Source of the DNA: Treponema brennaborense
GTDB lineage: Bacteria; Spirochaetota; Spirochaetia; Treponematales; Treponemataceae
Reading direction: 5' to 3'
DNA length: 64,000 nucleotides
NCBI GenBank assembly: GCA_023666275.1
Contig: JAMPCJ010000003.1
Coordinates: forward strand, 62,001-126,000
Each line of letters begins with the position of its first letter. Position 1 is the stretch's first letter. The position numbers were made by a program, and so were the translations under genes. This document shows positions 51,716-58,439 of the stretch, one piece after another. The notes beneath the pieces are model-generated. The model ran no database searches, was not told the origin of the DNA, and was given only the letters and a program-made list of their open reading frames with translations.

Positions 51716-52573
51716 ATGAAGCTGATTAAACAATTTGCGCTGATTGCTTCTGCAATGCTTGCTGTTTTGCCGGTAATTTCCGGATGTGCTAAAAAATCTG
51801 CCGGTGCTCAGGAAGTCTCCGGTGAAAAAACGAAATTAACGTACAGCCGTTCGCAGGGACCGTACACGGTTCTTTTTGAAAACGGCATTGCGCCGATTTT
51901 GGAACAAAAAGGCTATACGCTGAAAGGATACGATTATTCGGAATTAAGTCTTGCCGACGATGCGGTAAACAGCGGCGACGTTGATTTCAATGTTGAACAG
52001 CACACCGCGTATGCGGAAAGCTACAATAAAGGCAATAACGGGAAACTTCTGCCGATTACACCGATTCCGACGGTGCCGGCGAGCTTGTTTTCAAGCCGCT
52101 ATGCGTCGCTTGATGCAATAGACGGCATTGCAAAACCGAAAGTCGCAGTTCCGAACGATCCCGCAAACACGGCAAGGGCGTATGTGCTGCTGTCAAAAAT
52201 CGGCTGGATCACGCTGAAAGATGATGTGAATCTTTCGACGGCTACAAGCGAAGATATTATCGAAAATCCGCACGGCATTCAGTTTACCGAAATGAAATCG
52301 CTCAATATTCCGCAAGTTCAAGACGACTTTGATTTTGTCGTGATTACCGGCTCGATTGTTTACAATGCCGGCATCGACGCATCGACTGCGCTCGCGAAAG
52401 AAACCGTTCTTCCGCATTTGATTCTGCAGGTTGTAATCCGCGAAGACAACAAAGACGCGCAATGGGCAAAAGATATTGCAGATGCGTATCACTCGGAACA
52501 ATTCAAATCATATTTGGAAAAAACAAATTACGAAAACGGACTTTTCTGGGTGCCGGAAGATTATTGGAAATAG
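51716..52573 (+). CDS. metQ: MetQ-like substrate-binding lipoprotein, copy 1
   Basis: A 285-residue NlpA/MetQ-family lipoprotein (lipobox VISGC). VNSGDVDFNVEQHTAYAESYN, KVAVPNDPANTARAYVLLSKIGWI and the EDIIENPHGI stretch show the family. The usual NGNYA-type ligand segment is replaced by TGSIVYNAGID, so its ligand may differ from free methionine (cystine, oxidised Met or a dipeptide are possibilities). SD AAAGGAG precedes the ATG. The metN start follows the stop by 1 nt. Confidence 0.88.
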   Translation: MKLIKQFALIASAMLAVLPVISGCAKKSAGAQEVSGEKTKLTYSRSQGPYTVLFENGIAPILEQKGYTLKGYDYSELSLADDAVNSGDVDFNVEQHTAYAESYNKGNNGKLLPITPIPTVPASLFSSRYASLDAIDGIAKPKVAVPNDPANTARAYVLLSKIGWITLKDDVNLSTATSEDIIENPHGIQFTEMKSLNIPQVQDDFDFVVITGSIVYNAGIDASTALAKETVLPHLILQVVIREDNKDAQWAKDIADAYHSEQFKSYLEKTNYENGLFWVPEDYWK

Positions 52574-54296: not shown

Positions 54297-54325
54297 TTGA
54301 CATAAAAAACAAATAAAAGTATAAA
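54297..54325 (+). promoter_or_regulatory. Consensus promoter of the second Met-type cassette
   Basis: TTGACA (54297-54302), 17-nt spacer, TATAAA (54320-54325), starting just after metI1. Predicted start near 54332 puts the short leader ORF at 54377 in the leader of metN2. The AT-rich inverted repeat AATAAATTG/CAATTTATT (54324-54357) overlaps the start site. Confidence 0.7.
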
Positions 54326-54376
54326 TAAATTGTCCGAAAAACATCCGGCAATTTATTTCAATACGGAGGTATGATG

Positions 54377-54475
54377 ATGGCAAAAACTTCATTAAGAATA
54401 ATTGCTTTTGAAAAGCTTGTCCGCCAGAATTTCCGCAACGGCATCATGCGTCCGTGTCTGTTTGTGCAGTTCTAA
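54377..54475 (+). CDS. Short leader ORF before metN2 (leader family copy 1)
   Basis: A 32-codon ORF with SD GGAGG (54365-54369) 7 nt before the ATG at 54377; ATGs at 54371 and 54374 are in frame but too close to the SD. It contains AFEKLVRQNFRNGIM followed by RPCLFVQF. The core FEKLVRxNFRNGxM recurs in the ORF before metQ2 (57401-57469). Of the 14 core codons, five differ only synonymously (K, L, V, F, G) and two are conservative (Q/E, I/L), which argues for selection on the peptide. Location between a consensus promoter and metN2 suggests a regulatory leader peptide sensing amino-acid supply. Function is inferred. Confidence 0.6.
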   Translation: MAKTSLRIIAFEKLVRQNFRNGIMRPCLFVQF

Positions 54476-54487
54476 CTGCGTCGTTTT

Positions 54488-54502
54488 ATTTTACCGTAAA
54501 AT
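54488..54502. repeat. 15-nt palindrome downstream of leader ORF 1
   Basis: ATTTTACCGTAAAAT is a 7+1+7 palindrome between the leader ORF and metN2. It may be a small RNA hairpin or an operator. No T-tract directly follows; TTTTTT occurs at about 54511-54516. Confidence 0.4.
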
Positions 54503-54560
54503 GCCCAAAATTTTTTACTCGTTTATTCTGCAAATAAGTGCAGAGGATGGATTTGTTTAA

Positions 54561-55622
54561 ATGAATGATTTGATTGAATTGAAAAATATATACAAAACTT
54601 TTTATCACGGCGAAACGGTTTTTAACGCTGTAGAAAATGTATCGCTTTCAATTCGCAAAGGCGAGATTTTCGGGATTATAGGTTTTTCGGGAGCCGGAAA
54701 ATCAACTCTGGTGCGCGCCGTAAATCTTTTGGGACGTCCGACATCAGGCAGCGTTATTGTCCGCGGAAAAAATATGCTGAAACTTTCCGCAAAGGAATTG
54801 CGCGAGGAACGAAAAAAAATCGGAATGATTTTTCAGCATTTTAATTTGATGAAAAGCCGCACGGCGGAAGAGAATGTTGCTTTTCCGCTCAAGCGTTCCG
54901 GACTTTCGAAAATCCGAATTGCGGAAAAAGTGCAGTCGCTTTTGCGGCTTGTGGAAATCGAAGACAAAGCAAAAAATTTTCCGAGCCAGCTCAGCGGCGG
55001 ACAAAAACAGCGTGTTGCTATTGCTCGTGCGCTTGCGAATGATCCCGATATTCTGCTTTGCGATGAAGCGACATCCGCGCTTGATCCCGGAACAACGCAT
55101 GCAATTTTAAAATTGCTGAAAAAATTAAATCAGCAGCTCGGATTGACAATTGTCATAATTACACATCAAATGGATGTCATAAAAGAAATATGCGATAAAG
55201 TCGCGGTAATGGAGCACGGAAAAATTGTGGAAAGCGGCGAAGTTTTTGATATTTTTGCCAATCCGCAAAATGAAGTTACGCGCAATTTTATTCGTTCTTC
55301 TTCGGCACTTTCAAAAATAGATGATTTGATAAAAGAAAATTCGCCTGTTGTGCGTCTGCATTCCGGCGAAAAACTTGTGCGTTTTACGTATGTTCAGAAA
55401 AATGTCAGCGAGCCGCTTATTTCCGCTGTGTCAAGAATGTATGATGTAACAATAAATATTATTTTTGCGGAAATCGAAATTGTTCAGGATGCGCCGATCG
55501 GCGGAACGGTTGCAATTATCAGCGGAGACAACAACGCGGTTTTGCGTGCGCTTGAACATATCCGTCTGGAAAATGTCAGCGTTGACGTTTTGAAAGAATT
55601 TGCGGAGGAAAAAAATGCGTGA
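54561..55622 (+). CDS. metN: MetN-like ABC ATPase with NIL domain, copy 2
   Basis: A 353-residue ATPase with Walker A GFSGAGKST, signature LSGGQKQRVAIARAL, Walker B ILLCDEATSALDPG and an NIL domain at about 270-345 (VRFTYVQKNVSEPLISAVSRMYDVTINIIFAEIE). Clearly paralogous to copy 1 at 52.6 kb. Its binding protein is not adjacent; metQ2 lies after the hydroxyacid dehydrogenase gene. The last 8 nt overlap metI2. Confidence 0.93.
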   Translation: MNDLIELKNIYKTFYHGETVFNAVENVSLSIRKGEIFGIIGFSGAGKSTLVRAVNLLGRPTSGSVIVRGKNMLKLSAKELREERKKIGMIFQHFNLMKSRTAEENVAFPLKRSGLSKIRIAEKVQSLLRLVEIEDKAKNFPSQLSGGQKQRVAIARALANDPDILLCDEATSALDPGTTHAILKLLKKLNQQLGLTIVIITHQMDVIKEICDKVAVMEHGKIVESGEVFDIFANPQNEVTRNFIRSSSALSKIDDLIKENSPVVRLHSGEKLVRFTYVQKNVSEPLISAVSRMYDVTINIIFAEIEIVQDAPIGGTVAIISGDNNAVLRALEHIRLENVSVDVLKEFAEEKNA

Positions 55623-56295
55623 TGTGCTGGAAATATTTCTGCCGAATGTAATGCGCCGGCTTCCGGTTTTCGGGCAGGCGATTCTGGATACGATTATTAT
55701 GACGGCTTGGTCCGGGATAATAAGTTTTATTCTCGGTCTTGTTTGCGGAATTACGATTACCGTAACAAAAGAAGATGCTGTTCTGGAAAATAAATTTGTG
55801 TTTCGAATTCTTGATGCTCTTATCAATTTGTTTCGTTCGATTCCGTTTATTATTTTGCTTACCGGCGTTATGCCGTTGAGCCGTTTAATTATGGGAACAG
55901 CTATCGGTGTGCGCGGTGCGATTGTGCCGCTTGTTTTCGGAACAGTTCCGTTTTTCAGCCGGCAAATTGAAACGGCGCTTGCGGAAGTTGACGGCGGTTT
56001 GATTGAAGCTGCCGTCAGCATGGGACTTTCTCCGCTGGATATAATTTTTCGCGTATATTTGCGTGAAAGTGTTGCACCGATTGTCCGCGGCACTGCAATA
56101 ACACTGATAAGTTTAATCGGACTTACTGCGATGGCGGGCGTCGTCGGAGCGGGCGGGCTTGGAAATTATGCAATTATGTATGGACATGACCGCAATCAGC
56201 TTGACGTAACTTGGGTTACAATTGTGATATTAGTTGCCGCCGTAAATATAATTCAGTGGTTTGCCGGAATTATTATAAAAAAACATACGCATTAA
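55615..56295 (+). CDS. metI: MetI-like ABC permease, copy 2
   Basis: A 226-residue permease with about five or six membrane segments, EAA loop IEAAVSMGLSPLDIIFRVYLRESVAP and SIPFIILLTGVMPLSRLIMGTAIGVRGAIVPL. SD GGAGG sits inside the end of metN2 and the start overlaps its stop (ATGCGTGA), implying coupling. Forms the importer with metN2 and probably metQ2. Confidence 0.92.
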   Translation: MRDVLEIFLPNVMRRLPVFGQAILDTIIMTAWSGIISFILGLVCGITITVTKEDAVLENKFVFRILDALINLFRSIPFIILLTGVMPLSRLIMGTAIGVRGAIVPLVFGTVPFFSRQIETALAEVDGGLIEAAVSMGLSPLDIIFRVYLRESVAPIVRGTAITLISLIGLTAMAGVVGAGGLGNYAIMYGHDRNQLDVTWVTIVILVAAVNIIQWFAGIIIKKHTH

Positions 56296-56338
56296 AAACG
56301 GCGTTTAAAACTATCGGGAATATGTGCGGAGAAAAAAG

Positions 56339-57301
56339 ATGAATCTAAATAGAAGAAAAATAGGAATTATCGGCGCCGGCCATGTCGGGAGTCACGGTGC
56401 TTTTGCGTTGATTGCTCAGGGGCTTGCAGAAGAAATTGTGCTTATTGATATCGATGAAAAAAAGGCGCAGGCACAGGCACTCGATTTGTCTGATGCAGTT
56501 GTTTATTTGCCACGGCGCGCAAAAGTGTATGCCGGCTCTTATGACGATATACGCGATGCAGATATTTTAATTGTGGCAGCCGGACCGCTTCCCGATATGG
56601 CTGCCGGCCAGACAGATCGCCAGCAGACATTGGGTGCAACAGTTGCGGTTCTCAAAAATATAATTCCGCAGATTGCACGGAGCGGTTTTTCCGGCATCAT
56701 TGTGAATATTTCAAATCCTGCTGATGTTGTAACTCATTACTTGCAGGAAAAATTGAATTGGGATTCTCGGCGAATTCTTTCTACTTCTACGACGCTTGAT
56801 TCCGGACGGCTGCGCCGTGCGATTTCGGAAGCGACAGGCTACGATGAAAAATCTGTGTATGCTTATGCACTCGGCGAACATGGCGAAAGTCAGTTTGTGC
56901 CCTGGAGCATTGTTTCTGTAAGCGGAAAACGTTTGCTTGATTTAATTGCGGAACAGCCGCAGCGTTTTGATTGTTTGAATTTAGATGAAATTGCCGTACG
57001 TGCAAAAGGTGCCGGCTGGACAATTCTCGGCGGCAAAGGTTCTACGGAATTCGGAATCGGTGCATCCATTGCCGTCGTAGTACAGGCAATTATCTGCGAC
57101 GAAAATAAAATTCTGCCGGTTTCTGCGCTGCTTAACGGGGAATACGAACAGCGCGGCGTATATGCCAGCGTTCCATGCAGAATCAATAACGGCGGCATTG
57201 CGGAAATTATGGAGTTGAATTTAACGGACACCGAACGCGCGCAGTTTGCCGCCAGCTGCAAAACAATGGATGAAAATTACCGAAAAGCGTTAAGTCTGTA
57301 G
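56339..57301 (+). CDS. L-lactate/L-2-hydroxyacid dehydrogenase
   Basis: A 320-residue NAD-dependent LDH/MDH-fold enzyme. Dinucleotide motif IIGAGHVGSHGAFAL, acidic residue LIDID (NAD preference), the flexible loop GPLPDMAAGQTDRQQ with Gln at the lactate-type position, NISNPADVVTH, the Arg in LDSGRLRR and the catalytic His in GEHGESQFVPWS. The loop lacks the typical KPGETR of LDH and is closer in form to L-2-hydroxyisocaproate dehydrogenases. With importer genes and an aminotransferase downstream it may reduce 2-keto acids from imported amino acids. SD GGAGAAAA. Confidence 0.85.
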   Translation: MNLNRRKIGIIGAGHVGSHGAFALIAQGLAEEIVLIDIDEKKAQAQALDLSDAVVYLPRRAKVYAGSYDDIRDADILIVAAGPLPDMAAGQTDRQQTLGATVAVLKNIIPQIARSGFSGIIVNISNPADVVTHYLQEKLNWDSRRILSTSTTLDSGRLRRAISEATGYDEKSVYAYALGEHGESQFVPWSIVSVSGKRLLDLIAEQPQRFDCLNLDEIAVRAKGAGWTILGGKGSTEFGIGASIAVVVQAIICDENKILPVSALLNGEYEQRGVYASVPCRINNGGIAEIMELNLTDTERAQFAASCKTMDENYRKALSL

Positions 57302-57400
57302 CAAAAAAATTTTGCAGATGTGCAAGTTGGCATAACTGAACTTATGAAGCAATTGTGTGAAAAATTCATTTTTTTCGGTATCGGCGGCGGGAGAAACAAA

Positions 57401-57469
57401 TTGACATTTTATATGTATTTTGAAAAATTAGTGCGCGAAAATTTTCGCAACGGACTCATGTGCCGTTGA
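57401..57469 (+). CDS. Short leader ORF before metQ2 (leader family copy 2)
   Basis: A 22-codon ORF from TTG 57401 (SD GGGAG at 57389-57393, 7-nt spacing) or 18 codons from ATG 57413. Sequence around the core reads YFEKLVRENFRNGLMCR then stop. It repeats the FEKLVRxNFRNGxM core of the ORF at 54377 with different codons. Both peptides place Cys near the end (CR and RPC), which would fit sensing of Cys or Met charging. Downstream, before metQ2, CGGCA/TGCCG (near 57507-57530) and TGTGC/GCACA just before the SD can form small hairpins. No promoter with good boxes was found. Confidence 0.6.
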   Translation: MTFYMYFEKLVRENFRNGLMCR

Positions 57470-57611
57470 AATGAAACGATTGTCTGGTTTTATGACAGCG
57501 TGCGCGGCAGTGGATTTTTTCCCTTGCCGAATAATTCTGCGTGGCGGAATAAAAGTATAAGAAAAATTTATTTGAATATTATTGTGCGGAAATTTTGCAC
57601 AGGAGGATTAT

Positions 57612-58439
57612 ATGAAAAAGATTGCTGCGGTTATTATAAGTGCTGCACTGGTGTTTACGGCGGTTTCCTGCGGAAAAAAAACGCAGTCAGTTGAAGTGAA
57701 ACTCGGCGTAGTCGGTTCGATTTATGAAGATTTATGGGAACCTGCAAAAAAGGCACTTGCAGACGATGGCATCAATTTAAAAATTGTGCAGTTTTCGGAT
57801 TATGTAACGCCGAACAATGCGCTCGCAAACGGGGAAATCGATTTGAATGCGTTCCAGCACAGAATATTTTTGGAAAACGACGCGGAAAGTCATAATTACG
57901 ATGTAAAACTAATAGGAAATACGTTTATCATTCCGCTGAATTTATATTCCGTAAAAGTAAAATCTGTCGATGAACTGAAAAACGGCAGTGTTGTGGCGAT
58001 TCCGAATGATGTAACGAACGGCGGCCGTGCGATAAAAGTTTTGGCGGCTGCAGGACTTATTGCATTGAAAAGCGATGCAGGATTTAATCCGACTGTCGCT
58101 GATATAGCGGAAAATAATCGCGGCATAATCATTAAAGAGCTTGCGGCTAATACGATTCCTTCCGCGCTTTCGGATGTTGATGCCGCAGTTGTGAACGGAA
58201 ATTACGCACTTGATTTCGGTATAAAAACCGAGTCGGCGATTTTTGCGGATACATCGATTTCCGAAAAAGCATATTGGAATTTAATTGCCGCCCGCGGTGC
58301 TGATTTAAATGATCCGGAAAAAGTAAAAATTTTCCGCAGCGTGGTAAAAGCCTTTCAGTCGCCGGAAACCGAAAAAGTGTTTAATGAAACATTCGGCGGT
58401 TATTTTATCAAAACAGGCTGGGACATAGACGAATTGTAA
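57612..58439 (+). CDS. metQ: MetQ-like substrate-binding lipoprotein, copy 2
   Basis: A 275-residue lipoprotein (lipobox FTAVSC). It has canonical MetQ signatures lacking in copy 1: NGEIDLNAFQHRIFLENDAESHNY, VAIPNDVTNGGRAIKVLAAAGLI, and VVNGNYALDFGI. Therefore methionine or a close analogue is its most likely ligand, and it probably partners MetN2/MetI2. SD CAGGAGG precedes ATG 57612. Confidence 0.92.
   Translation: MKKIAAVIISAALVFTAVSCGKKTQSVEVKLGVVGSIYEDLWEPAKKALADDGINLKIVQFSDYVTPNNALANGEIDLNAFQHRIFLENDAESHNYDVKLIGNTFIIPLNLYSVKVKSVDELKNGSVVAIPNDVTNGGRAIKVLAAAGLIALKSDAGFNPTVADIAENNRGIIIKELAANTIPSALSDVDAAVVNGNYALDFGIKTESAIFADTSISEKAYWNLIAARGADLNDPEKVKIFRSVVKAFQSPETEKVFNETFGGYFIKTGWDIDEL

Follow-up and report, generated by a model that had tools for sequence, protein, structure and literature searches.

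The window analysed here, that is, the whole stretch of 64,000 nucleotides (nt) from contig JAMPCJ010000003.1 of the Treponema brennaborense assembly GCA_023666275.1 (positions 62,001 to 126,000, forward strand), contains between positions 51716 and 58439 two adjoining sets of genes for Met-type importers, metQ1-N1-I1 and metN2-I2 ... metQ2. The second set is interrupted by a lactate/malate dehydrogenase gene, and only this set contains the two upstream open reading frames (uORFs), each about 20-30 codons long, that are the subject of the present study. They encode short peptides with the shared core FEKLVRxNFRxGxM, and the features around them are listed in Table 1.

Table 1. Features of the second importer set and its two uORFs (positions in the window)
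Feature	Position	Strand	Detail or basis
Promoter-like TTGACA (54297-54302), 17-nt spacer, TATAAA (54320-54325)	54297..54325	+	by eye; between metI1 stop and uORF1
uORF1, candidate leader peptide MAKTSLRIIAFEKLVRQNFRNGIMRPCLFVQF (then stop)	54377..54475	+	core 54407-54448; Shine-Dalgarno sequence (SD) GGAGG 54365-54369, 7 nt 5' of ATG
Terminator-like hairpin GTGCAGTTctaaCTGCGT + CGTTTTATTT	54464..54481	+	terminator scan; overlaps uORF1 stop codon
Hairpin TCTGCAaataagTGCAGA merging into SD-like AGAGGA 5' of metN2	54527..54547 (hairpin 54527-54544)	+	fold of 54520-54580, z = -2.4
metN2, methionine ATP-binding cassette importer ATPase, 3' of uORF1	54561..55622	+	TIGR02314 E=3e-115
metI2, importer permease	55615..56295	+	MetI-type by position and sequence
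Lactate/malate dehydrogenase family gene, between metI2 and uORF2	56342..57301	+	TIGR01771 above cut-off
uORF2, candidate leader peptide MTFYMYFEKLVRENFRNGLMCR (then stop), TTG start	57401..57469	+	core 57419-57460; SD GGAG 57390-57393, 7 nt 5' of TTG
Hairpin TGTGCggaaattttGCACA (TGTGC...GCACA 57583-57601), then SD AGGAGG of metQ2	57583..57606	+	sequence
metQ2, methionine-binding lipoprotein, 3' of uORF2	57612..58439	+	NF008285 E=1e-57

For uORF1, alternative ATG codons occur at 54371 and 54374 in the list of open reading frames (ORFs), and 54377 is preferred as the start because the SD spacing is best there. The 14-residue cores of the two peptides are identical at 12 positions, and their codons differ by five synonymous and two non-synonymous changes. 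A Cys is located three residues past the core Met in uORF1 and directly past it in uORF2. An earlier sequence-only reading of the window had reported both ORFs with their SDs, the shared core, the same codon changes and the nearby Cys, and had named metN2 and metQ2 as the downstream genes; the sequence, the ORF list, a recount of the codons and the protein-family matches agree with it on each of these points. In the source genome (2.35 Mb, 18 contigs), these two are the only FEKLVR copies, and no O-acetylhomoserine sulfhydrylase gene (metY) of the relevant type was found.

Further copies, which that reading had suggested searching for together with a tally of the genes behind them, turned out to be many and to lie mostly before sulphur genes. 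A degenerate LVRxNFRNG pattern matched about 40 sites in 30 of 145 genomes of Treponemataceae versus one match for the reversed control, and had no match in about 150 genomes from elsewhere in the order; a degenerate pattern of the full core was matched in two further genera. When three mismatches were allowed across the phylum, 22 of 393 genomes were positive, all from the same family bar one. This lone match lies on a 10-kb contig of a metagenome-assembled genome of another class, which may be misbinned. With one genome per GTDB species, at least 119 loci were obtained; among the matches listed, about two thirds belong to Clostridia (Oscillospiraceae, Lachnospiraceae, Ruminococcus, Christensenella) and the rest to Treponema and its relatives. 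The family is sparse in the class Clostridia, where 7 of 391 sampled genomes were positive with zero matches in the controls. Several of the Clostridial contigs are hundreds of kb long, and therefore contamination is not the explanation. One pattern match (L007) was dropped, since it sits within a long unrelated frame. The resulting family set consists of 148 distinct loci, 71 Treponema-type and 77 Clostridial, with up to four copies per genome, each heading its own gene, and the two window copies are firm members. Cultured carriers are T. bryantii B25, T. saccharophilum DSM 2985, T. porcinum ATCC BAA-908 and T. zioleckii kT3. The core matches neither a model in Pfam, NCBIfam or Rfam nor any paper in the searchable literature, and the sequence-only reading had likewise known no described family with it; on this basis, FEKLVR is a previously undescribed peptide family. 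Could the similarity result from chance, a repeat or a mobile element? Two nearby copies in one genome could stem from duplication. However, the codons show synonymous differences, members occur in two phyla whereas the control patterns gave next to no matches, and no FEKLVR match was found in viral contigs, which leaves this explanation a negligible probability.

The consensus over the 148 loci is M-x-x-(Y)-F0-E-K-L-V-R5-x-N7-(F/Y)-R9-(N/F/Y)-G11-(R/V/L/I)-M13, and the chain from the start to the invariant M13 has 18 residues (M-x3-FEKLVRxNFRxGxM). An in-frame start preceded by an SD is present in 139 loci, exactly four codons before F0 in 121, versus 21 of 296 when the other two frames were used as the control. 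Synonymous codons are exchanged freely at L3, V4, R5, R9 and G11. In Treponema, the ratio of non-synonymous to synonymous polymorphism (pN/pS) is 0.135 for the core and 0.023 for positions 0, 1, 2 and 13, which are those not selected by the first family search pattern. It should be noted that part of the core invariance is a product of the search patterns, and that M13 was demanded in one family scan; M13 is nevertheless present in every true member from the patterns that did not require it. The peptide is under strong selection at the amino-acid level, and the similarity at the peptide level, proposed from two copies, is borne out by family-wide synonymous scrambling and by a pN/pS far below 1. 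The sequence-only reading had named a lack of further copies and a ratio of non-synonymous to synonymous substitution rates near 1 as outcomes speaking against it, and neither was found. After M13 there is either a short tail, in which Cys accounts for 37-43% of the first six residues, or an immediate stop (22 members, 21 of them Clostridial); a run of Cys/Met regulatory codons is not a feature of all members.

The uORF is equipped with start signals of its own, and in both phyla it is found in leaders of genes for Met/Cys supply, in keeping with the link to sulphur amino-acid supply first suggested for the window. Among the 148 downstream entries there are 102 metY genes, 12 for MetQ, 6 for a UroD/MtaA-like methyltransferase (corrinoid-type), 5 for a cystathionine synthase-like (CGS-like) protein, 3 for MetN, 3 for a LanC-like protein, 2 for CysK and 15 others, where several of the others are truncated by contig ends and near-identical loci from two genome collections may be counted twice. 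Single cases precede a gene for a cystine-type binding protein or permease, an M20 amidohydrolase or a PaaK-like ligase. On plasmid pTS2 of T. saccharophilum, the uORF, which is unannotated in RefSeq (one copy checked), is flanked by an Rrf2-family regulator gene and a pyridoxal phosphate-dependent gene that RefSeq assigns to Cys/Met metabolism, with a cysteine synthase gene nearby. Many leaders contain the promoter ACCTATTGACAnnGTAGGTAA, with a second copy of the palindrome CCTAY-N6-RTAGG 3' of the -10 element; the palindromic ACCTATTGACAnnGTAGGTAA overlaps the -35 element, for example in the leaders of L003, L021, L045, L082, L155 and many others. Because an Rrf2 gene adjoins the uORF on pTS2, the palindrome is probably an Rrf2 (CymR-like) operator of a sulphur regulon. 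In a quick MetY tree (loci L003-L211), Treponema and Clostridia are intermixed and genes without the uORF are nested among those with it, a pattern suggestive of transfer of leader and gene between the phyla and of repeated loss; the intermixing would also point to exchange between phyla in gut and rumen communities. In Treponema, an interspersed repeat, GGGTTTTAGGG...CCCTAGGCGA(G)AGGGGTAGC...GGGGAGACTTCCCC, is inserted between the uORF and the gene at L004, L020, L023, L045, L047, L087, L126, L131, L155 and L160.

At least 21 Clostridial leaders contain a separate Met/Cys-rich ORF (for example MKKQNTITTTMMMEMCMWTQLMCMTCC...) 5' of the FEKLVR uORF. It is located about 190-255 nt 5' of the core, as in L082, L091, L110, L140, L163, L179, L069, L118, L127 and others. 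In the ten leaders that were read closely, the two ORFs are as a rule separated by a terminator-like hairpin; GGAGAAC/GTTCTCC pairing and the hairpin CCGGGAGACT...AGTCTCCCGG followed by a T-run are seen at such loci. To judge by these elements, the upstream ORF looks like an undescribed classical Met/Cys-codon attenuator stacked before the FEKLVR uORF in Clostridia. Ordinary ribosome-mediated attenuation could also be considered for the FEKLVR uORF itself, with the Cys run of the tail (and Met) as the sensor and the core as a mere carrier. The Cys content of the tails and the Cys/Met supply genes as targets fit this explanation, and poly-Cys leaders have precedents in Actinobacteria (PMC1262725) and before cysS in Rhodobacterales (PMC8632094). 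However, a carrier would not need an invariant 14-residue amino-acid core across phyla, and the 21 Clostridial members ending at Met have no tail. The tail-less members therefore disfavour simple counting of Cys codons, and where the separate upstream ORF is present, codon counting is probably done there. Consequently, we regard attenuation by the tail codons as unlikely, though the best placed of the alternatives.

Is there evidence for a switch at the RNA level? Arg at position 12 is encoded by CGA in 82 of the 100 family members that have it, and mostly so in Clostridia, where the two bases 3' of the M13 ATG are mostly TG. At about half of the Clostridial loci, the resulting GAATGTG(N) of codons 12-14 can pair with (N)CACATTC ending about 7-11 nt before the SD of the next gene. 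The pairing score in Clostridia is 13.21 for native versus 12.15 +/- 0.24 for permuted partners, and 13.00 versus 11.88 +/- 0.27 in the non-redundant set, with 0 of 1000 permutations as high in either case, and the signal is mostly lost when the 5' window is slid off the GAATGTG motif. The predicted accessibility of the SD in Clostridia is 0.462 with native codons versus 0.512 with synonymous shuffles (p = 0.0016). Only this synonymous-codon control was retained as accessibility evidence; the gain in accessibility on masking was rejected as stand-alone evidence, since the removal of any partner raises accessibility. Through this pairing with the segment just before the next SD, the last codons of the uORF are constrained at the RNA level in Clostridia. 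In Treponema, pairing between the tail and the SD region is seen at several loci, for example L088 (CTCCTGTTGC with GTAACAGGAG) and L059 (ACTCCTGTT with AACAGGAGT), and the covariation over all loci is weaker (13.85 versus 12.90 +/- 0.30 permuted, 1 of 500). No consensus structure common to both phyla was found: Clostridia have the helix of uORF and SD-proximal segment, while many Treponema loci have a conserved short hairpin, GCTGAAAGnnCTTTAGC, just past the uORF stop and with no clear T-run (L024, L040, L054, L055, L090, L093, L103, L166). A putative stall site placed so as to alter the downstream RNA structure is supported by these predictions in Clostridia and more weakly in Treponema, and does not show up in the window copies when SD accessibility is predicted.

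These data bear on two further explanations. One, the alternative already offered by the sequence-only reading, is a small functional protein; it would act in trans, perhaps regulating the transporter or enzyme or serving as its partner. Strong peptide-level selection and a good SD and start speak for it. Against it, genomes with several copies have each directly before a different gene, the N-termini and tails are variable, the targets are unrelated with no obvious common partner, and the last codons are constrained at the RNA level in Clostridia; it is thus improbable. Slightly less probable still is a constitutive leader ORF that raises expression by reinitiation or coupling without sensing. 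The gaps between uORF and gene are often <100 nt, and expression-raising leader genes have been proposed (PMC4833913), yet reinitiation has no need of a conserved peptide, and the helix and codon bias suggest switching.

We therefore favour the view that each mini-ORF encodes a cis-acting leader (arrest) peptide controlling the sulphur-supply gene after it, and put its probability at roughly 0.6, where the arrest itself, the signal and the direction of control are inferred. That one genome can have several copies, each preceding a different gene, argues for action in cis, and the invariant 18-residue chain argues for an effect of the nascent chain. In this mechanism, the 18-residue chain would fill the exit tunnel, and the ribosome would slow or arrest with the invariant Met in the P site when methionine or cysteine supply is low, either through uncharged tRNA or because a small ligand is lost. 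Least certain in this scheme is what the signal is (Met, Cys or a derivative). The held ribosome would cover the end of the uORF and so keep it from pairing with the SD or close to it, leaving the SD open for translation of the sulphur gene; a ribosome running on through the short Cys tail or to the stop would let the inhibitory pairing re-form. Where a terminator-like hairpin lies at the end of the uORF, as at uORF1 of the window, transcription could be switched instead. Opening of the SD by a ribosome held at M13 would fit genes expected to rise under shortage of sulphur amino acids. The observation made on the window holds in all its details and claims less than the family data bear out, and its interpretation as a cis-acting leader is supported.

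Several results weigh against this mechanism. Tails without Cys occur in 29 of the 148 members, 22 of which have no tail at all, and therefore a pure Cys-codon sensor cannot account for every member. Among 30 close MetY genes in the same bacterial family, 13 lack the uORF, which is therefore dispensable; their leaders often retain the palindromic promoter motif. About half of the Clostridial loci have no clear helix, the synonymous-shuffle accessibility test shows no effect in Treponema (p = 0.57), and the permutation tests remove relatedness only in part. In both window copies, masking the uORF leaves the predicted SD accessibility unchanged.

In the window, the promoter-like element before uORF1 is similar to the left half (CCTATTGACA) of the promoter/operator seen in the family, and was omitted by the consensus scan because the last base of its second hexamer is not T. 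The terminator scan gave two terminator-like sites, both strands together, versus 0.3 expected in shuffles, and no such site on the + strand at uORF2. The GCACA right arm of the metQ2 hairpin could alternatively pair with ATGTGC of uORF2; the fold of 57500-57630 has z = -2.3, and other pairings appear too.

Few bacterial peptides are known to regulate metabolism from inside the ribosome. If true, the arrest-peptide reading would add one that responds to sulphur amino acids and is conserved among gut and rumen bacteria of two phyla, account for a set of recurrent unannotated mini-genes and offer a route to annotating sulphur regulons in Treponema and rumen/gut Clostridia. The compact core, 18 residues from the start to the invariant Met, suits toeprinting and cryo-electron microscopy. 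More tentatively, and with somewhat less than even chances, FEKLVR may be a new class of metabolite-sensing arrest peptide, whose nascent chain senses methionine, cysteine, S-adenosylmethionine (SAM) or a sulphur intermediate within the exit tunnel; the module would have travelled with metY between spirochaetes and clostridia and, in some of the latter, would form a third control layer behind the Met/Cys-codon attenuator and the Rrf2-type operator.

Then, how does this family compare with known systems? S-box (SAM) and T-box leaders control the same Met/Cys genes. With Rfam, no leader RNA, SAM and T-box types included, was found at the window region or in the related leaders scanned, and the sole T-box matches were two, below the gathering threshold and far from the uORF. 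Cysteine leader peptides precede cys/cbs operons in Actinobacteria (PMC1262725), and polycysteine small ORFs are described in mycobacteria (Canestrari et al. 2020, as cited in PMC13236596). They resemble the FEKLVR uORFs as short ORFs before sulphur genes with Cys codons near the stop, but share runs of Cys codons, whereas FEKLVR has an invariant 14-residue core and Cys is optional. Similarly, uORFC-8-2 of Rhodobacterales is a short ORF that contains tandem Cys codons and precedes a cysteine-related gene, but it concerns cysS only and is terminator-based, and the available text reports no FEKLVR core for it (PMC8632094). TnaC (PMC8429421) is also a short leader peptide that controls amino-acid genes and has conserved residues throughout its length, although its sequence, targets and taxa differ and the arrest of FEKLVR is putative; as a parallel to such ligand-dependent arrest peptides, some FEKLVR members stop right at the putative arrest point. 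In CruR (DUF2946), sensing is done by the nascent product of a uORF that stands at the head of many operons, but CruR has CXXC and RAPP motifs and a copper signal (PMC9426467), while the FEKLVR core is without these motifs. None of the Cys-codon leaders, CruR or TnaC is known to share the FEKLVR core, and they are its functional analogues.

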